Source of the DNA: Bacteroidetes bacterium 43-93
GTDB taxonomy: Bacteria; Bacteroidota; Bacteroidia; Chitinophagales; Chitinophagaceae
NCBI GenBank assembly: GCA_001897855.1
Contig: MKUO01000007.1
Location: 248,001-312,000, forward strand
DNA: 64,000 nucleotides
Direction of reading: 5' to 3'
Shown here: piece after piece, positions 5,132 through 39,716 of the stretch
How the letters are laid out: each line of letters starts with the position of its first letter
Numbering within the stretch: position 1 is the first letter of the stretch
Program-made: the position numbers and the translations under genes
Notes under the pieces: generated by a model
Seen by the model: only the letters and a program-made list of their open reading frames with translations
Database searches by the model: none
Told to the model about the DNA's origin: nothing

Positions 5132-5226
5132 CAAATATCGAATAATGCTATGTGTTTCAGCAGACTACAATCAGCGTGAAAATTGACCATCGTCATCTTT
5201 TGAGTAGTGCGCTGTATCTAAGTTTG
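5132..5226. promoter_or_regulatory. Divergent promoter with tandem Fnr/Crp-type sites
   Basis: AGACTACAATCA 5162-5173, TGACCATCGTCA 5184-5195 (22 bp apart); + -7 TAAGTTTG 5219-5226; - -7-like GATATTTG 5132-5139. Confidence 0.7.
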
Positions 5227-6688: not shown

Positions 6689-7408
6689 TTGACAGATAAA
6701 AGTAAATCGGGGTTTACAGCCAATTGTGAAACATGTACGGTAAAGGATAAATCCATCTTTTGCCATTTGCAGATGGATGAACTGATCACCATTGATGAGC
6801 ATAAATCATGTATACCGTATAAAAAAGGACAGATCATTTTCAATGAGGGCAACTATCCTTTGGGGGTGTACTGCATAAATAAAGGCAAGGTGAAACTGGC
6901 TCATGCGGGCCAGGATGGGAAAGAGCAGATAGTAAAACTGGCGAAGGAAGGCGATGTGCTGGGTTACAGATCTATGCTTAGCTCTGAGCGCTATAATGCA
7001 TCGGCAATAGCCCTGGAGGATACCCAGATATGCTTTATCTCTAAAGAGGTTTTCTTCAGCTTGCTGCGAAAGAACCCAACCCTATCACTGGAGATCATCA
7101 GGATGCTGGCCTTAGAATTAAGGCTAACAGAAAACAGGCTGACAGATATTGCCCAGAAACCTGTGCGCGAACGTATGGCAGAGGCTTTATTATTTCTGAA
7201 AGAAACTTATGGTTTTGAAAAGGATAACGCTACCATCAGCGTGGTGCTATCGCGCGAGGATATTGCCAACCTCGTGGGTACGGCAACTGAAACAGCGATT
7301 CGCCTGCTTTCAGAATTTAAGCATGATAAGATAGTTGTATTTGTAGGGAAGAAGATAAAAATACTGGATATGGATAAACTGGTGAAGACAGCTAATATTT
7401 ATAACTAA
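6689..7408 (+). CDS. Crp/Fnr family transcriptional regulator with N-terminal Cys cluster
   Basis: cNMP-binding fold plus HTH_Crp (EDIANLVGTATETAIRLLSEF); NCETCTVKDKSIFC at N-terminus; TTG start. Confidence 0.85.
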   Translation: MTDKSKSGFTANCETCTVKDKSIFCHLQMDELITIDEHKSCIPYKKGQIIFNEGNYPLGVYCINKGKVKLAHAGQDGKEQIVKLAKEGDVLGYRSMLSSERYNASAIALEDTQICFISKEVFFSLLRKNPTLSLEIIRMLALELRLTENRLTDIAQKPVRERMAEALLFLKETYGFEKDNATISVVLSREDIANLVGTATETAIRLLSEFKHDKIVVFVGKKIKILDMDKLVKTANIYN

Positions 7409-10512: not shown

Positions 10513-10577
10513 TGATAACAATCATGTTTTCGCATGAGTGTGGTCATGGAGCGGGGGATAAGTGCGTAATAGTTTTG
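10513..10577 (+). promoter_or_regulatory. Tandem Fnr/Crp-type sites and -7 box upstream of the cco operon
   Basis: TGATAACAATCA 10513-10524; TGAGTGTGGTCA 10535-10546; TAGTTTTG 10570-10577. Confidence 0.75.
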
Positions 10578-17551: not shown

Positions 17552-17616
17552 TGACGGCAATCATTTGAATCGATGATGGCACTCATAGTGTTGACCTGAT
17601 TAATGCAGCAACTTTA
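17552..17616 (+). promoter_or_regulatory. Tandem Fnr/Crp-type sites upstream of PEP synthase
   Basis: TGACGGCAATCA 17552-17563; TGATGGCACTCA 17574-17585; degenerate -7 CAACTTTA 17609-17616. Confidence 0.65.
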
Positions 17617-20873: not shown

Positions 20874-21689
20874 ATGAAAAAGATCATCACGATATTCGAC
20901 GGGAGAAATTTTTCCGAAGGAGTATTTGAATTTATCAAGTGGCAAAATGCTACTAGCCCTGTATTGCTAACCGGTGTTTTTCTCAATGCAATTGACTATG
21001 CTACCGCATGGAACTATCCTATGTTCCTCAGCGGCTATCTCAATACTGTTGTAGAAGATTTTGATACCATAGCGAGCAATGTGCAAAAATTTAAAAATTT
21101 ATGCGAGCGAAACGGCATCGAATACAGGGTTCATGAAGATATTGGCACAGGAGTGATGGAATTGATAAGAAAAGAAACACGTTTCTCTGACTTATTAGTG
21201 ATGTCCGGCGATTTCTTTTATAACGATACGTTTTACATCGACCCGGATTCTTACCTGAAAGATACTTTGCACGAATCAGAATGCCCCGTGCTATTGCTCC
21301 CCGATAATTTTAAAGCACCGGTAAATAATATCCTCGCGTATGACGGCAGTGCGTCTTCAGTATATGCAATCAAGCAATTCTCTACGCTTTTTCCTGCATG
21401 GCGAGGTAACAAAACCCATATAGTGTATGCGAGTGTCAAGGGTAAGGAAATTCCGGATAGAATATATATTGAAGAATTGGCGGTGAGGCATTTTCCTAAT
21501 CTTATTATTGATGCACTCCAAATGGATGCCCGGAAGTATTTCAATACCTGGCTGACGGATCAGCCGAGGTCTATATTAGTTACAGGTGCCTATGGGAGAT
21601 CTTCTTTGTCTGAATCTTTGAAAAATAGTTTCGTTGCAGAGATCGTTATGGAGCACAAAATACCAGTATTTGTAGCGCACAGCCATTAG
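20874..21689 (+). CDS. Universal stress protein (UspA family)
   Basis: Two Usp halves; SECPVLLLPDNFKAPVNNILAYDGSASSVYAIKQF; SILVTGAYGRSSLSE. Confidence 0.8.
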   Translation: MKKIITIFDGRNFSEGVFEFIKWQNATSPVLLTGVFLNAIDYATAWNYPMFLSGYLNTVVEDFDTIASNVQKFKNLCERNGIEYRVHEDIGTGVMELIRKETRFSDLLVMSGDFFYNDTFYIDPDSYLKDTLHESECPVLLLPDNFKAPVNNILAYDGSASSVYAIKQFSTLFPAWRGNKTHIVYASVKGKEIPDRIYIEELAVRHFPNLIIDALQMDARKYFNTWLTDQPRSILVTGAYGRSSLSESLKNSFVAEIVMEHKIPVFVAHSH

Positions 21690-22877: not shown

Positions 22878-22973
22878 CAAAAATCTTATCATAAACCGGA
22901 ATTGGAGATGATGACACTCATGTATTGATATGACAGCAGTCATAAACTGCCAAACGACCGGCGTATAGTTTTA
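22878..22973. promoter_or_regulatory. Divergent promoter with tandem Fnr/Crp-type sites
   Basis: TGATGACACTCA 22909-22920; TGACAGCAGTCA 22931-22942; + TAGTTTTA 22966-22973; - GATTTTTG 22878-22885. Confidence 0.7.
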
Positions 22974-23003: not shown

Positions 23004-23387
23004 ATGAAAAAAATAAGTATTACGCACGTAAACAACGCACATAATGACTGGATAAGAGCATTGGACTTTTATAAGCAGGAGTTGAATATTTTGAAAAGCA
23101 GGCTATCTGAGATTGGGGGAAAGAACTCCGCTGCCGATGTTTTAAAACAAGTAGAACATTTTGAGAACGCATTTAAAGTGCAGCGCGATAACATGGATCG
23201 TCTGAACCATGATGTTCACCTGAATGTAGTAAGCATTGGTAATCAGTTGCAGGAGTCTAAAGCGGGGTATATTGATGCAGCTTTACTGGCGCAGCATAAT
23301 ACCCTTCATGAACGATTTACGGCTGAAGAAAAGGCGATCAATGAATTAAGGCATCAGTTTACCCAATTTTCGGCAGACTGGATGTAA
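23004..23387 (+). CDS. Uncharacterised small coiled-coil protein
   Basis: 127 aa, regulated start region, paralogous to the protein at 25736-26086. Confidence 0.7.
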   Translation: MKKISITHVNNAHNDWIRALDFYKQELNILKSRLSEIGGKNSAADVLKQVEHFENAFKVQRDNMDRLNHDVHLNVVSIGNQLQESKAGYIDAALLAQHNTLHERFTAEEKAINELRHQFTQFSADWM

Positions 23388-23527: not shown

Positions 23528-24679
23528 GTGGACCGGAGATATTTTGAATTTGCCCTCTTTAACAACGCCGCTATTGGCATCATTGCAGTTGATGCCAGTG
23601 GCCAGATGGTTTATGTAAATGAGTATGCGCTCAATCAGTTTGGATACGAGAAAGACGAGATTTATGGGAAAAAGATCGAAACCCTGATTCCCCAGCGTTA
23701 TAAAAACCGCCACGAGCAACATCGCGACCATTTTCACAATCATAATCCGCACAACAGGCCCATGGGTATCGGGCTCGATCTGCACGGAAGCCGTAAAGAT
23801 GGTTCTGAATTTCCGGTAGAAGTGAGCCTGAGTACTTATGAAACCTCAGAAGGGAGGTTTAGTGTGGCCTTTATTATTGATATTACCTCTCGTAAAGAAT
23901 CAGAAAAGGCGTTGCTAAAACTGAACGAAGAATTAGAGCAAAAAGTAAAAGAACGTACTCATTCCCTTGAGGAAGCGCTGGCAAAAGAGAAAGATCTGAA
24001 TGAATTAAAATCAAGGTTCGTGTCTATGGCTTCTCACGAGTTCAGGACACCATTAAGTACTATCTGGTCCTCAGCATATCTTGTTTCTCAATATACACAA
24101 GCAGAAGACCAGCCCAAACGGGAAAGACATATACAGCGTATTGTATCTTCCGTAAATCTGCTTACTGATATTCTCGATGATTTCTTATCGGTTGGTAAGA
24201 TAGAGGAAGGCAAGATACAAGTGAAAGTATCGGAGCTCAATTTGAAGGAGCTTACGGAAGATTTCCTGTCAGAATTAACTACCATTCTTAAAAAAGGCCA
24301 GTCCATCGATTATCAGCACACAGGTGAGGAATTGATCATGCAGGACCCGGCATTGTTGAAACATATCCTCATGAACCTGGTATCCAATGCCATGAAGTTC
24401 TCTGATGAGGATACCACAATTACTGTTCGCACATCTCTTATAAACGGAGTATTGACATTATCTGTTAAAGATCAGGGGGTTGGTATTTCTGAGGAAGACC
24501 AGGAGCACTTATTTGAGCGTTTCTTCCGCGGTTCGAATGTGATAAATATTGAAGGAACGGGTCTTGGCCTGCACATTGTAGCCAAATATGCCGAGCTGCT
24601 CAACGGGACTATAAAATGCAATAGCACTCTTGGAGAAGGAACAGAATTTATTGTGGAATTCCAACCAAATCGTCAATAG
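23528..24679 (+). CDS. PAS-domain sensor histidine kinase
   Basis: PAS: ERYK-like RYKNRHEQHRDHF...GSRKDGSEFPVEVSLS; HisKA SHEFRTPLST; HATPase GTGLGLHIV; GTG start. Confidence 0.9.
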   Translation: MDRRYFEFALFNNAAIGIIAVDASGQMVYVNEYALNQFGYEKDEIYGKKIETLIPQRYKNRHEQHRDHFHNHNPHNRPMGIGLDLHGSRKDGSEFPVEVSLSTYETSEGRFSVAFIIDITSRKESEKALLKLNEELEQKVKERTHSLEEALAKEKDLNELKSRFVSMASHEFRTPLSTIWSSAYLVSQYTQAEDQPKRERHIQRIVSSVNLLTDILDDFLSVGKIEEGKIQVKVSELNLKELTEDFLSELTTILKKGQSIDYQHTGEELIMQDPALLKHILMNLVSNAMKFSDEDTTITVRTSLINGVLTLSVKDQGVGISEEDQEHLFERFFRGSNVINIEGTGLGLHIVAKYAELLNGTIKCNSTLGEGTEFIVEFQPNRQ

Positions 24680-24680
24680 T

Positions 24681-25739
24681 ATGAAGAATATTTTATTAAT
24701 AGAAGACAATATAAACATCAGGGAAAACCTGGCCGAAATACTGGAGCTGTCTGGTTATAAGGTAATGAAAGCCGAAGGAGGCAAACAGGGTGTTGCTTTC
24801 GCTTTCGAATCCACACCGGATATCATCCTTTGCGATATCATGATGCCCGACCTGGATGGCTATGGTGTGATCCATATGATACAAAACAATCCTGCCACTC
24901 AAAATGTGCCTTTCATTTTTCTTACCGCAAAGACTGAAAGGGCTGATGTGCGAAGAGGGATGGAATTAGGTGCGGATGATTATATCACGAAGCCATTCAA
25001 TAGCACCGAAGTGCTAAAGGCTATTGAAAGCCGGCTAAAGAAAAGTGACTTGCTGAGAAAAGATGTAGGGCATGGTATTGAAGGGTTAAGTGCCATCATC
25101 AGCTATTCCGGCGGTAAAAACATATTAGATACGTTTGCCGAAGAAGGACATATTAACAAGTTTAAAAAGAAACAGGTTATTTATAGCGAAGGCAACCATG
25201 CTGTAAGGCTGTTTTATATAGATAAGGGCAAAGTGAAAACTTACCGTACCAATGATGACGGTAAAGAGCTGGTAACAGCTATATACCACGAGGGCGATTT
25301 CTTCGGTTATGTTCCTATTTTAGAGCATACGCCCTATAAGGATACCGCTGAAACGATGGAAGATTGCGAGATAGCTGTAATACCTCGGGATACGTTTGAA
25401 GATCTGCTGAGTAAGAACCCCGATGCGATGAAGAAGATAGTAGAGCTGCTTGCAAAAAATGTTTCGGAGAAAGAACAGCAACTATTAGGGCTGGCGTATA
25501 ATTCCCTCAGGAAAAAGGTTGCCAATGCAATTATAACAGTGTCAGAGAAATATTCTAATGGTAGCAAAGAGCCTTTTTATATAGATATCAGCCGCGATAA
25601 CCTTGCCACAATAGCCGGCACGGCCAAGGAATCCCTGATACGTACGCTCAGCGATTTTAAAGAGGAGAAATTAATTGATATCGTAAAGGGCGACATAGTG
25701 GTGCTGGATGAAAAGAAACTGCGCAATTTGGTAAACTAA
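24681..25739 (+). CDS. Response regulator receiver domain fused to cNMP-binding/Crp HTH regulator
   Basis: REC: DIILCDIMMPDLDGYGV, FLTAK; then cNMP fold (QVIYSEGNHAVRLFYIDKGKVKTYR) and HTH DNLATIAGTAKESLIRTL. Confidence 0.9.
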   Translation: MKNILLIEDNINIRENLAEILELSGYKVMKAEGGKQGVAFAFESTPDIILCDIMMPDLDGYGVIHMIQNNPATQNVPFIFLTAKTERADVRRGMELGADDYITKPFNSTEVLKAIESRLKKSDLLRKDVGHGIEGLSAIISYSGGKNILDTFAEEGHINKFKKKQVIYSEGNHAVRLFYIDKGKVKTYRTNDDGKELVTAIYHEGDFFGYVPILEHTPYKDTAETMEDCEIAVIPRDTFEDLLSKNPDAMKKIVELLAKNVSEKEQQLLGLAYNSLRKKVANAIITVSEKYSNGSKEPFYIDISRDNLATIAGTAKESLIRTLSDFKEEKLIDIVKGDIVVLDEKKLRNLVN

Positions 25740-26086
25740 AGCACCTCGTGAATATAATTGGTGAAATTATATTTCAGGTTACCGAATTCCTTTTCCATCT
25801 TTTCCATATCGTACCTTAAGGTGATACGTTTTTTGTGAAATTCTTCAGGAGATAAATTATTTTCCTGGAGTTTTTTTATGTCTCTGCGTAAAAAAGCTAT
25901 AACAGTATCCTTATTCAGGAACAGGTTGTTGTACTGTTCTATTTTGTCTAGAACATTGGGTGCAGCATTAAGCGAAAGTATATCCGATATCTGGTTTTTC
26001 ATATGGATATTCTCTTGTTGCAGATAGTCCAGTGTTCGTATCCACCCTTTTATCTCATAGCTATATTTCTCGCTATTGTCAATCAT
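25736..26086 (-). CDS. Uncharacterised small coiled-coil protein, paralogue of 23004-23387
   Basis: WIRTLDYLQQENIHMKNQISDILSLNAAPNVLDKIEQYNNLF versus WIRALDFYKQELNILKSRLSEIGGKNSAADVLKQVEHFENAF. Confidence 0.7.
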   Translation of the reverse strand: MIDNSEKYSYEIKGWIRTLDYLQQENIHMKNQISDILSLNAAPNVLDKIEQYNNLFLNKDTVIAFLRRDIKKLQENNLSPEEFHKKRITLRYDMEKMEKEFGNLKYNFTNYIHEVL

Positions 26087-26589: not shown

Positions 26590-26684
26590 CAAAATTATTT
26601 CTGCACACATACAACTAATATGACCATTGTATTCTCAAATAATGATTGTGGTCAGTTTCTCAGGGCCGGGTGTATATAATTTTG
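26590..26684. promoter_or_regulatory. Divergent promoter with tandem Fnr/Crp-type sites
   Basis: TGACCATTGTAT 26621-26632; TGATTGTGGTCA 26643-26654; + TAATTTTG 26677-26684; - TAATTTTG 26590-26597. Confidence 0.75.
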
Positions 26685-26689
26685 CTTTT

Positions 26690-30467: not shown

Positions 30468-30532
30468 TAATTACTGTCATTAAGATACCTGATGCTTATC
30501 ATTTTAATGGTATATGTAAGGCTATACCTTGC
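30468..30532 (+). promoter_or_regulatory. Tandem Fnr/Crp-type sites
   Basis: TAATTACTGTCA 30468-30479; TGATGCTTATCA 30490-30501; weak -7 TACCTTGC 30525-30532. Confidence 0.6.
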
Positions 30533-32851: not shown

Positions 32852-32946
32852 CAAACTTAGGATAGACAATGGCAAAACAGGCTGATACCTGTCAGACGTA
32901 AAAATGATGTATATCAGAAAAAAAAGCAAAGGCGGAGAGTACTTTG
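32852..32946. promoter_or_regulatory. Divergent promoter with two near-perfect tandem Fnr/Crp-type sites
   Basis: TGATACCTGTCA 32883-32894; TGATGTATATCA 32905-32916; - TAAGTTTG 32852-32859; + GTACTTTG 32939-32946. Confidence 0.8.
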
Positions 32947-32962
32947 CAGGAAAGAATATGCC

Positions 32963-34574: not shown

Positions 34575-35012
34575 TCATTTTACATTGATCGTCTTTTTCT
34601 TGTTGTTTGTAGCCTTTTCATTTTTTGGCAACACAAGGTTTAGGACACCATCCTGGTAGCTGGCGTCTATCTTTTCTTTGCTCACTTCTTCAGGCAGGGT
34701 AAAGCAACGTGAAAAAGAAGAATAGTTATACTCTTTACGGGTATAATTCTTGTCTTTTTCTTCTGCGCTTTTTTCCTTCTCTGCACTGATGGTCAGAAGG
34801 TTGCCATCCACATCTACATTAAAGTCCTTTTTGTCGAGTCCGGGCGCAGCCAAAGAGAGTTTATACTCCTTGTCTGTTTCTGTAATGTTTACAGCAGGTA
34901 ATGTCAATGATTTGTCTGCGAATCCGTTCTGGAACCATTCACCCCATGGTTCAAGGAAATCGCTTAATACGGAGGATAGTCCGTTTGTTCTTGCCAAAGA
35001 TTTTACTGACAT
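34575..35012 (-). CDS. Hsp20/alpha-crystallin small heat shock protein
   Basis: YKLSLAAPGLDKKDFNVDVDGNLLTISAEKE; SFSRCFTLPEEV; start chosen at MSVKSLARTNG. Confidence 0.92.
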   Translation of the reverse strand: MSVKSLARTNGLSSVLSDFLEPWGEWFQNGFADKSLTLPAVNITETDKEYKLSLAAPGLDKKDFNVDVDGNLLTISAEKEKSAEEKDKNYTRKEYNYSSFSRCFTLPEEVSKEKIDASYQDGVLNLVLPKNEKATNNKKKTINVK

Positions 35013-35047: not shown

Positions 35048-35143
35048 CAAAAGTAGCTCCGCTATTAAACGACATCAATGACAGCTGTCAATACATAATC
35101 TGATGTTTATCAGCAGGTGCATTTTGTCTTAATGATAGTTTTG
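35048..35143. promoter_or_regulatory. Symmetric divergent promoter hsp20/ftsH with tandem Fnr/Crp-type sites
   Basis: TGACAGCTGTCA 35079-35090; TGATGTTTATCA 35101-35112; - TACTTTTG 35048-35055; + TAGTTTTG 35136-35143; both strands 29.5 and 51.5 bp from site centres. Confidence 0.85.
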
Positions 35144-35172: not shown

Positions 35173-37122
35173 ATGAACGATGCAAAAAAGGATAATAGAA
35201 AAGCCGGGCGTTCCCGGGTAACACGCTGGGTGATCTGGATAGTAGCTTTATTGCTTATCAATATCGTATTCACCTACTTCCTGGCAAGGAATGAAGGTGG
35301 CTACAGGGAAATAAGTTGGCAGCGATTCAAAGATAATATGCTGCGGCCCCGCGATGTAGACAGGATAGAGGTACTGAATAAAGAAAAAGTACTGGTGTAC
35401 ATAAAGTTCGACAGCCTGAAAAAGAAGGAATACAGCGACCTCGGTTCTCTGACTAAGAAAGCAACCGGAGAACCGCAATACTATTTCACTATTGGCTCTG
35501 TAGATGCATTTGAAAAAAACATGGCAGATGTTTTTACCGGTGATAATGAGAAGTACGAGCCACCAATTACTTACATCAGCAAAAGCAATTCATGGCAGAC
35601 GGTATCATCATGGTTACTGCCGCTTGGATTGTTATTGCTGTTTTGGTTTTGGGTGTCCGGAAGGGGGAGCACTTTAGGCGGTGGTGCTGCCGCAATTGAT
35701 TTCAGTAAATCGCGTGCTGAGGAGTATGGAGAGCATAAAACCAGTCCATTCACCTTTAAAGATGTTGCCGGCTATGAAGAGGCCAAAACAGAAGTGATGG
35801 AAATCGTTTCCTTTTTAAAGCAACCGGGCAACTTCACAAAGCTGGGCGCCAAGATACCTAAAGGTGTATTGCTGGTAGGCCCTCCCGGTACGGGTAAGAC
35901 TCTGCTTGCTAAGGCTGTAGCAGGAGAAGCCGCAGTGCCGTTCTTCTCTTTATCGGGTTCTGAGTTTATTGAATTGTTCGTTGGTGTAGGTGCATCACGT
36001 GTTCGCGATCTTTTTGACCGTGCCAAGGCAAAAGCGCCCAGCATCATATTCATAGACGAAATTGATACAATAGGCAGGGTTAGGGGTAAGGCTGTTTCTA
36101 TACAGGTAAATGATGAAAGGGAAAGTACCCTAAATCAGTTGCTTGCAGAAATGGATGGATTTGACCCTAACACAGGCGTCATCGTAATGGCGGCGACTAA
36201 CCGTGCAGATATCCTGGATGCTGCCCTGCTAAGGGCCGGCAGATTCGACAGGCATATTTATTTGGAACTACCCAATAAAGAAGAGCGCAATGCCATTTTT
36301 AAAGTGCACCTGAAACCTTTGGTATTGGCAAAGGATGTGGATAGCATGTTCCTCGCAGCACAAACGCCGGGTTTCTCCGGAGCAGATATTGCCAATGTTT
36401 GCAATGAAGCAGCCTTAATGGCCGCAAGACAAAAGAAAGAGGCCGTTGAGAAAAAAGATTTCTTTGATGCTATAGACAGGGTGGTGGCAGGACTGGAGAA
36501 AAAGACCAAGATCATTACACCTGCCGAAAAGAAGAGAATAGCTTTTCATGAAGGTGGTCATGCAGTAGTTAGCTGGAAACTGAAACATGTGGACCCATTG
36601 GTAAAAGTATCAATCATACCACGTGGTAAATCTCTTGGTGGTGCATGGTACCTGCCAGAAGAAAGGCAGATCATTACTCGCGATCAGTTCCTGGATCAAC
36701 TCTGCGCCGCCCTCGCCGGCAGGGCAGGAGAGGAAGTAGTATTCAACGAAATATCTTCGGGCGCATTAGACGACCTGGAGAAAGCCACCAAACAGGCTTA
36801 TAGCATGGTAATGAAACTGGGGTTGAGCGATAAGCTGGGCAATATCAGTTATTATGATTCTACCGGCACCTATGAAAGCTCTTTTCAAAAACCTTACAGC
36901 GAAGCTACAGCGCAATTGATAGATGCAGAGGCACAGAAACTGCTACAGGATGCCTACACCCGGGCAAAAGCTATATTGATAGAGAACAGGGACCAGCTGA
37001 ATGCTATTGCTGATAAGCTTTTAAGCAAAGAGATCATTTACAAAGAAGACCTGGAACAGATATTGGGCATACGGGAAGGCACAGAACAACCTCAGCAAGT
37101 TGCAGGTAAAACAGAGGCCTGA
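35173..37122 (+). CDS. ftsH: ATP-dependent zinc metalloprotease FtsH
   Basis: [39 protein letters not shown]; start chosen at MNDAKKDN. Confidence 0.93.
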
Positions 37123-37128
37123 CGATTT

Positions 37129-37638
37129 TCAGGAGTCTTTAAAATGAATATTCAATTGCGAAAGGATATCGAAGAAGTCGATGTCCTTTTTTGTTTTCCG
37201 GTATTCATACAAAAGAAAGTCAAGGCCATTCCATATCAAAAACCATCCTGCGGGCTCCATGATAATGCGAAGGACGGTCATCAGGTAACTGCTGTAGCCC
37301 TTGTAGGCGATCAGCGAATCGATAGCCATAACAAGCATACCCAGGGCAACTAATAGCATTCCCCTGTTATATATATTCCTTGCAGATTGTTTTAGTATAT
37401 CCAGTCTTTTATTGAATTGCTCTTTGATGCTGAAAGCTATCTCTTTTTCAATATCAATCTTACGCTGGTTGTGAGGTAGTAAAAGCAGCAGGTTTTCCGT
37501 GCGCCCCGGAATATATTTAAGAGACGATTGCAGTTCGTCTACAAGATCCTCAGATATTCGTCTTTTCAGATAATGTCGGGAATCAAAATCAGAATAAATA
37601 TCGTCGTAAGAATCGAGCCAAAGACTTATTTCGGACAT
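37129..37638 (-). CDS. Uncharacterised two-TM membrane protein
   Basis: MSEISLWLDSYDDIYSDFDSRHYLKRRISEDLVDEL...; start set by the predicted promoter. Confidence 0.65.
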   Translation of the reverse strand: MSEISLWLDSYDDIYSDFDSRHYLKRRISEDLVDELQSSLKYIPGRTENLLLLLPHNQRKIDIEKEIAFSIKEQFNKRLDILKQSARNIYNRGMLLVALGMLVMAIDSLIAYKGYSSYLMTVLRIIMEPAGWFLIWNGLDFLLYEYRKTKKDIDFFDILSQLNIHFKDS

Positions 37639-37643
37639 AGATA

Positions 37644-37738
37644 CTAAAGTAGCATACATAAAACTCCGAATTGCTGATAGCCGTCACTGTATAACTGACA
37701 TCCATCAGATTATCGGCAACAATAATGGCATAGAATTG
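37644..37738. promoter_or_regulatory. Divergent promoter with tandem Fnr/Crp-type sites (21-bp spacing)
   Basis: TGATAGCCGTCA 37675-37686; TGACATCCATCA 37696-37707; - TACTTTAG 37644-37651; + TAGAATTG 37731-37738. Confidence 0.7.
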
Positions 37739-37762: not shown

Positions 37763-38305
37763 ATGAAACAGGGAAAAATTATATTATCATTGGCAGCACT
37801 GGGTGGATTGATGTTGGTTGCGCGTAGCATGAATGGCAAATCCATACCCGATGGATTAACCGCTGTAAAACCATTTGATCAAAACAAATATTTGGGAACG
37901 TGGTACGAGATCGCCCGTTTCGATTATCGCTATGAACGAAATCTTGATAACGTAAGTGCAACTTATTCCTTGAAAGATAATGGTACCATCAGGGTAGATA
38001 ATAAAGGCTACAATTACAAAAGCCAGAAATGGGAAGAAAGCATTGGTAAAGCAAAGCCATCGGGAGACCCGAAGGAGGCTCGGTTAAAAGTTTCATTTTT
38101 TGGCCCTTTTTATGCCGCTTATAATGTTGTAGCCCTCGACAAAGATTATAAATATGCATTGGTAGCCGGTAAGAATACCGATTACCTATGGCTATTATCC
38201 AGGGAGAAAACAATGCCCGAAGATGTAAAGAAGAAATACCTGGACATTGCGCGAAAGGCCGGTTATAAAGTAGATGAGCTGATTTGGGTGAAGCACGATA
38301 AATAA
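37763..38305 (+). CDS. Lipocalin family protein (Blc-like)
   Basis: YLGTWYEIARFDYRYERNLDNVSATYSL; YLWLLSREKTM. Confidence 0.92.
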   Translation: MKQGKIILSLAALGGLMLVARSMNGKSIPDGLTAVKPFDQNKYLGTWYEIARFDYRYERNLDNVSATYSLKDNGTIRVDNKGYNYKSQKWEESIGKAKPSGDPKEARLKVSFFGPFYAAYNVVALDKDYKYALVAGKNTDYLWLLSREKTMPEDVKKKYLDIARKAGYKVDELIWVKHDK

Positions 38306-38330
38306 GAAGTTCACTAAGGAGTGTAAATAT

Positions 38331-38359
38331 AAAAGGGTTACAAATAAGTAATCCTTTTT
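38331..38359. terminator. Hairpin terminator after lipocalin gene
   Basis: AAAAGGGTTAC-AAATAA-GTAATCCTTTTT. Confidence 0.7.
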
Positions 38360-38364
38360 CTTTG

Positions 38365-38438
38365 TGGTCCCACTGGGACTTGAACCTAGGCCCCCCCTGA
38401 TTGTGAGTCAGATGCTCTAACCACCGAGCTATAGGATC
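38365..38438 (-). pseudogene. Degenerate tRNA-like copy (anticodon position reads CAC)
   Basis: About 89% identical to 39643-39716; A2:C71 acceptor mismatch, one T-stem mismatch, D-loop deletion. Confidence 0.65.
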
Positions 38439-38531
38439 AGCTTGTTCCTTCATTTTATGCTTGCTTATAAGTGCAAGTGATTCAACCGATACCATATTTA
38501 GTTAAATTTATTTACTAATGTGCGATAGACG

Positions 38532-39639: not shown

Positions 39640-39642
39640 CTG

Positions 39643-39716
39643 TGGTCCCACTAGGACTTGAACCTAGGACCCCCTGATTATGAGTCAGGTGCTCTAACCA
39701 ACTGAGCTATAGGACC
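39643..39716 (-). tRNA. tRNA-Met (CAT) (or Ile2 with modified CAT)
   Basis: Reverse complement GGTCCTATAGCTCAGTTGGTTAGAGCACCTGACTCATAATCAGGGGGTCCTAGGTTCAAGTCCTAGTGGGACCA; complete cloverleaf. Confidence 0.92.

Follow-up and report, generated by a model that had tools for sequence, protein, structure and literature searches.

The region between hsp20 and ftsH in Bacteroidetes bacterium 43-93 is probably a shared divergent promoter, on which paired dimers of a CRP/FNR-family protein would act in both directions, the most likely activator being a REC-CRP fusion protein encoded 10 kb away in the same 64,000-nucleotide stretch of DNA (termed here the window). The region belongs to a regulon, and its mirror-symmetric layout is found again in a large group of Bacteroidota, beside the gene for this unusual two-component regulator of a predicted low-oxygen type. 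The sites, their spacing, their recurrence and their link to REC-CRP genes were all computed, as set out below.

Geometry of the hsp20/ftsH region

The elements of the divergent region and its two genes are as follows:

34575..35012, minus strand: hsp20, small heat shock protein, 145 aa (Pfam HSP20, 1.7e-25)
35048..35055, minus strand: hsp20 -7 box TACTTTTG; predicted transcription start 35043
35079..35090: dyad A, TGACAGCTGTCA, predicted proximal site (-41.5) for hsp20 and distal site (-63.5) for ftsH
35101..35112: dyad B, TGATGTTTATCA, predicted proximal site (-41.5) for ftsH and distal site (-63.5) for hsp20
35136..35143, plus strand: ftsH -7 box TAGTTTTG; predicted transcription start 35148
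35173..37122, plus strand: ftsH, AAA membrane protease, 649 aa (Pfam Peptidase_M41 and AAA; NCBIfam TIGR01241 above cut-off)

The dyad centres lie at 35084.5 and 35106.5 and the first bases of the -7 boxes at 35055 (minus) and 35136 (plus), so that a single axis, 35095.5, serves both the dyad pair and the pair of boxes. The initial annotation had reported perfect -7 boxes on each strand, each 29.5 and 51.5 bp from the two dyad centres; the boxes are there, and recomputation gives the same distances on both sides. It had also described two perfect dyads 22 bp apart, of which the positions and the spacing stand, but not the perfection of both: TGATGTTTATCA is palindromic in its outer arms only (TGAT-N4-ATCA, or CTGAT-N4-ATCAG), its centre not being self-complementary.

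The predicted starts (31 bases 5' of the hsp20 start codon and 25 bases 5' of that of ftsH) and the -41.5 and -63.5 positions are obtained by transferring the numbering of the -7 box TAnnTTTG from Flavobacterium psychrophilum, in whose mapped transcriptome this box spans -12 to -5 and the variant TAnnTTGY occupies the same position (PMC9723704). On this numbering a dyad centre 29.5 bp from the -12 base lies at the class II position, -41.5, and one is found there in both directions. The ftsH promoter has no -33 TTG.

The mechanism proposed for this geometry, in which binding, phosphorylation, the signal, activation and the distal dimer's part are all predicted, treats the region as a shared divergent promoter that holds two class II promoters back to back. 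Each dyad would be occupied by an activator dimer of the CRP/FNR family and, with two helical turns between them, the pair would share one face of the DNA. The RNA polymerase of each gene would be contacted by its own dimer at -41.5, replacing a strong -33 element, and the dimer at -63.5 would assist. In mechanical terms, this would amount to class II activation aided by a helper site further upstream. Because the dyads lie exactly midway between hsp20 and ftsH, one activator pair would be placed to switch on both genes and, because the dyad pair is symmetric, the proximal and distal roles would swap for the other gene and Hsp20 and FtsH would be made together. Such a swap of class II and upstream roles had been suggested from the outset; it fits the geometry, and the one-directional promoters described below back two sites for each promoter.

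Recurrence of the dyad pair and sharpness of its spacing

Five further dyad pairs in the window, not remarked on in the initial annotation, have like spacing, four at 22 bp and one at 21. These and related sites with a degenerate distal dyad are:

5162..5226, plus strand: MBL-rhodanese promoter; degenerate distal dyad, proximal dyad at 5184, -7 box TAAGTTTG
10513..10577, plus strand: ccoNO one-directional promoter; dyads at 10513 and 10535, -7 box TAGTTTTG at 10570
17552..17585, plus strand: 22-bp dyad pair 5' of a PEP-synthase-like gene (17616), without a good -7 box
22878..22973: third mirror promoter, YkuD (minus) / 127-aa ORF at 23004 (plus); dyads at 22909 and 22931
26621..26685: acetyl-CoA hydrolase promoter; degenerate distal dyad at 26621, proximal dyad at 26643; plus-strand -7 box at 28.5, minus-strand -7 site weaker
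30468..30532, plus strand: DUF6600 promoter; degenerate distal dyad at 30468, proximal dyad at 30490, -7 box TACCTTGC
32852..32947: second mirror promoter, usp (minus) / baeRF (plus); dyads 32883-32894 and 32905-32916; -7 boxes TAAGTTTG and TACTTTGC, each at 29.5
37675..37707: 21-bp-spaced dyad pair between ORF 37129-37659 (minus) and lipocalin 37763 (plus); 5/6 -7 boxes at 29.5 on both sides

Every site is placed upstream of a -7 box, exactly where a class II activator would bind, and none lies over the box. This placement, like the lack of a -33 TTG in the ftsH promoter, argues against reading the dyads as repressor operators from which both genes are released under stress; although CRP/FNR proteins also repress from certain positions, that reading is very improbable. 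The idea of a one-off site, which is how the initial annotation had treated the region without naming a regulator, was rejected, the dyad-pair design recurring in the window, in the genome and in relatives.

A chance arrangement of short palindromes was also rejected, by means of reversed patterns and Markov sequence. Single dyads are indeed frequent (356 TGAN6TCA in 1.22 Mb), but the mirror composite, defined by 28 specified positions with at most 3 mismatches allowed, has three matches in the window (22878, 32852 and 35048), none in 1.92 Mb of first-order Markov sequence and, when reversed, none across 399 genomes; the probability of a chance origin is accordingly negligible. Statistics for the organism's own genome come from 1.22 Mb of stretches, supplemented by pattern searches of the whole genome (3.99 Mb, 27 contigs). 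In the latter, TGAN6TCA-N10-TGAN6TCA occurs 16 times, as against once for the reversed pattern, and when TGAYN4RTCA pairs are sought with any gap from 0 to 30, 10 of 14 are separated by exactly 10 and one by 9. In the 1.22 Mb, dyads stand 22 bp apart 11 times where 0.10 would be expected, and the distances of -7 boxes from the centres of perfect dyads show peaks at 29.5 bp (6) and 51.5 bp (8). The composite of two dyads plus a -7 box has 22 matches there at spacing 22 and gap 23, whereas other spacings give 0 to 3 and no other gap gives more than 5; both in the genome and at REC-CRP loci, a change of 1 bp in the dyad spacing or the gap loses most of the composite signal.

These figures also bear on whether the distal site does anything. 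If the proximal dimer alone mattered, the region would consist of a back-to-back pair of independent class II promoters, each with an idle distal site. In keeping with this, FNR-activated promoters of E. coli usually have one site near -41.5 (PMC3688515), as opposed to the two dyads here, and one-directional promoters often have a degenerate dyad at the distal position. Such promoters, in this genome and in relatives, nevertheless have a second dyad at -63.5 besides the one at -41.5, and the spacing stays fixed at 22 bp even in one-directional use, which counts against an idle distal site, because independent sites need no fixed spacing there; likewise, perfect dyads are as frequent at 51.5 bp from the -7 box as at 29.5. 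Because even degenerate distal dyads keep their 22-bp distance from a perfect proximal one, both sites seem to have a role at each promoter, and an idle distal site is rather unlikely.

Among 399 genomes of the host's order, 138 contain the mirror composite, with 215 elements in total. These stand at cco genes, baeRF, PAS kinase, Usp and PRT-DLH/erythromycin-esterase pairs, among others. For hsp20, the order dyad, dyad, -7 box is kept at gap 23 in about half of 29 close orthologues and at gap 24 in further ones; none of these 29 was seen to be divergent from ftsH. Because relatives keep the double dyad without a divergent ftsH, the hsp20 promoter appears to be conserved and its pairing with ftsH local.

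Several observations stand beside these. At G000 C1:604958-605033 (L055), between the divergent genes hemH and hemA, dyads 33 bp apart (three helical turns) accompany a -7 box at 29.5 on the hemA side, likely a variant of the same design. Mirror elements in relatives also lie beside N2O reductase-like and NiFe hydrogenase-like genes (L140, L142, L143, L155), a likeness judged by eye from protein starts. The window encodes a 271-aa protein without a Pfam match (20874-21689), whose relatives adjoin Usp genes and mirror elements in other genomes, and contains genes for tRNA-Val (38364-38438) and tRNA-Met (39642-39716), the former overlapped by a minus-strand ORF (37989-38495) that is probably spurious.

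Candidate regulators

Three proteins encoded in the window bear on the identity of the activator:

6689..7408, plus strand: FNR-type CRP protein with N-terminal cysteines (Pfam; NCBIfam Fnr 1.5e-28, below cut-off)
23528..24679, plus strand: PAS histidine kinase with a FixL-like PAS domain, the predicted sensor (Pfam)
24681..25739, plus strand: REC-CRP fusion (Response_reg, cNMP_binding and HTH_Crp_2), the predicted activator (Pfam); the ORF opens at 24630, and the ATG at 24681 is the likely start

The REC-CRP fusion is the most likely regulator, judging by where the sites and its gene co-occur. Mirror elements are found in 130 of 276 genomes with REC-CRP and in 8 of 123 without (odds ratio 12.8, p 2e-17). 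For shared ancestry and genome size, the control consists solely of comparisons within the host's family (52/107 with, 2/28 without) and within genera of mixed REC-CRP status (12/20 with, 2/17 without). The association is not complete: 146 REC-CRP genomes have no mirror element at the threshold of at most 3 mismatches, and 8 genomes have an element but no fusion. Of the listed elements, 67 come from genomes in which a REC-CRP gene was located, and 24 of these are no more than 20 kb from that gene (0.8 expected). In a second collection, consisting of 80 REC-CRP loci from Chitinophaga, Niastella, Emticicia, Larkinella, Phaeodactylibacter and other Bacteroidota, 57 composites of spacing 22 and gap 23 occur within 3 kb of the REC-CRP genes, as against 0-4 at other spacings, and a related PAS kinase is near REC-CRP in 71 of the 80. 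Relatives harbor islands in which the kinase and the fusion are surrounded by double-dyad sites and by genes for cco, Hsp20, Usp, P-type ATPase and baeRF.

The phospho-accepting Asp of REC-CRP is conserved, as are the Glu and Arg of its recognition helix, and the TGA...TCA dyad matches a CRP/FNR-type recognition helix bearing these two residues. In the proposed mechanism, the adjacent PAS histidine kinase would phosphorylate REC-CRP on a low-oxygen or related redox signal. FixL heme-PAS domains are the best named PDB matches to the kinase's PAS domain (4.7e-13 for 1d06), and in 12 orthologues the position of the FixL heme ligand is always occupied by His; the distal Arg, however, is not conserved, so that heme binding is no more than a lead.

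Two further REC-CRP paralogues are encoded at G000 C18:117133-118197 (60% identity) and C1:295207-296268 (42%); a dyad and a -7 box just upstream of the latter suggest self-control. Convergent with REC-CRP in the window is a 116-aa ORF without a Pfam match (25739-26086), relatives of which adjoin REC-CRP in several genomes.

The FNR-type protein, a putative oxygen sensor, is the main competitor: it might mainly drive the mirror promoter, with REC-CRP serving other targets. Its recognition helix is nearly identical to that of REC-CRP (TATETAIRLLSEF against TATESLIRTLSDF), its own operon bears the site (the MBL-rhodanese gene being the one upstream of the FNR-type gene), and FNR-only genomes retain dyad pairs (mean 1.28 in 25 complete genomes, as against 0.18 with neither regulator). 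Its gene also lies near some mirror elements, 5 of 20 being within 20 kb (0.18 expected). Yet mirror elements do not track this cysteine-bearing protein, a candidate iron-sulfur FNR: they show no positive association with it (23/90 genomes with, 115/309 without), an element being present in just 5 of 51 FNR-only genomes. In a small sample of FNR-only pieces, sites occur at CcoI, NiFe hydrogenase and other genes, with none at hsp20 or usp, whereas in relatives hsp20 often neighbours REC-CRP, many of the orthologues with a double dyad adjoining it. Co-occurrence therefore weakens the case for the FNR-type protein as sole regulator, and for it as the main driver the chances are slim. With REC-CRP as the principal activator, the FNR-type protein may still bind some of the same sites, and dual control of the kind exerted by FixK and FnrN in rhizobia (PMC7888657) is plausible by analogy.

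Relation to known systems and biological meaning

At the level of the promoter, the closest likeness is to class II and tandem-site CRP/FNR promoters, which share the TGA-N6-TCA-type dyad at -41.5, an upstream partner near -62 and the CRP-type helix-turn-helix. They differ from the present design, in which two dyads at a fixed 22 bp form a mirror usable both ways and the core element is the Bacteroidota -7 box, not a -10 box.

At the level of the regulon, the gene set (cbb3 oxidase, Hsp20, Usp, PEP synthase and P-type ATPase) appears, by analogy, to resemble the Fix and DosR regulons. Rhizobial control of fixNOQP and fixGHIS by FixL-FixJ-FixK and FnrN (PMC7888657) likewise combines a FixL-like PAS kinase with an activator of the CRP/FNR family, has cbb3 oxidase among its targets and includes an FNR-type protein as a second sensor that shares similar sites. 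FixJ, however, has a NarL-type output and acts through a separate FixK, whereas here receiver, cNMP-binding and HTH_Crp_2 domains form one protein; the Fix anaerobox is TTGAT-N4-ATCAA, whereas the site here is TGAY-N4-RTCA without the outer T (present in only 17% of 60 half-sites); and stress genes are included here.

Among the members of the DosR regulon in Mycobacterium are PfkB, erythromycin-esterase and P-type ATPase genes. DosR/DevR of Mycobacterium and OsdR of Streptomyces exert two-component control over Hsp20 and Usp, with multiple sites per promoter (PMC7018068, PMC5069765), and the OsdR regulon contains PEP/pyruvate-phosphate dikinase genes (PMC5069765); here, too, and in relatives, sites lie upstream of both Hsp20 and Usp genes. 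Moreover, narK2 and Rv1738 share one divergent promoter under DevR, with site roles reversing (PMC7018068). DosR, however, belongs to the NarL type and has a different binding site, whereas the activator predicted here is CRP-type. Because both output domain and binding site differ, the system is not a member of either the Fix or the DosR/OsdR family.

A search of the open-access literature found no paper on a receiver-CRP fusion and no account of a REC-CRP/double-dyad regulon; few transcription factor regulons have been defined for environmental Bacteroidota. It is a serious, if tentative, possibility that the kinase, with its FixL-like PAS domain, and the fusion, which unites a FixJ-type receiver and a FixK-type activator in one protein, together make up a one-step oxygen or redox switch, acting through phosphorylation-dependent dimer pairs 22 bp apart. 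If so, this switch would be widespread in Bacteroidota, would govern a dormancy-like stress set (Hsp20, FtsH, Usp, PEP synthase and P-type ATPase) as well as cbb3 oxidase, and would use mirror promoters as its standard device for co-expressing divergent genes. Because the site grammar is sharp to one bp and comes with a candidate regulator, its kinase and a target list, the whole regulon is testable; within it, the hsp20/ftsH region would provide a clean natural case of a single dimer pair predicted to serve two promoters with its roles swapped.
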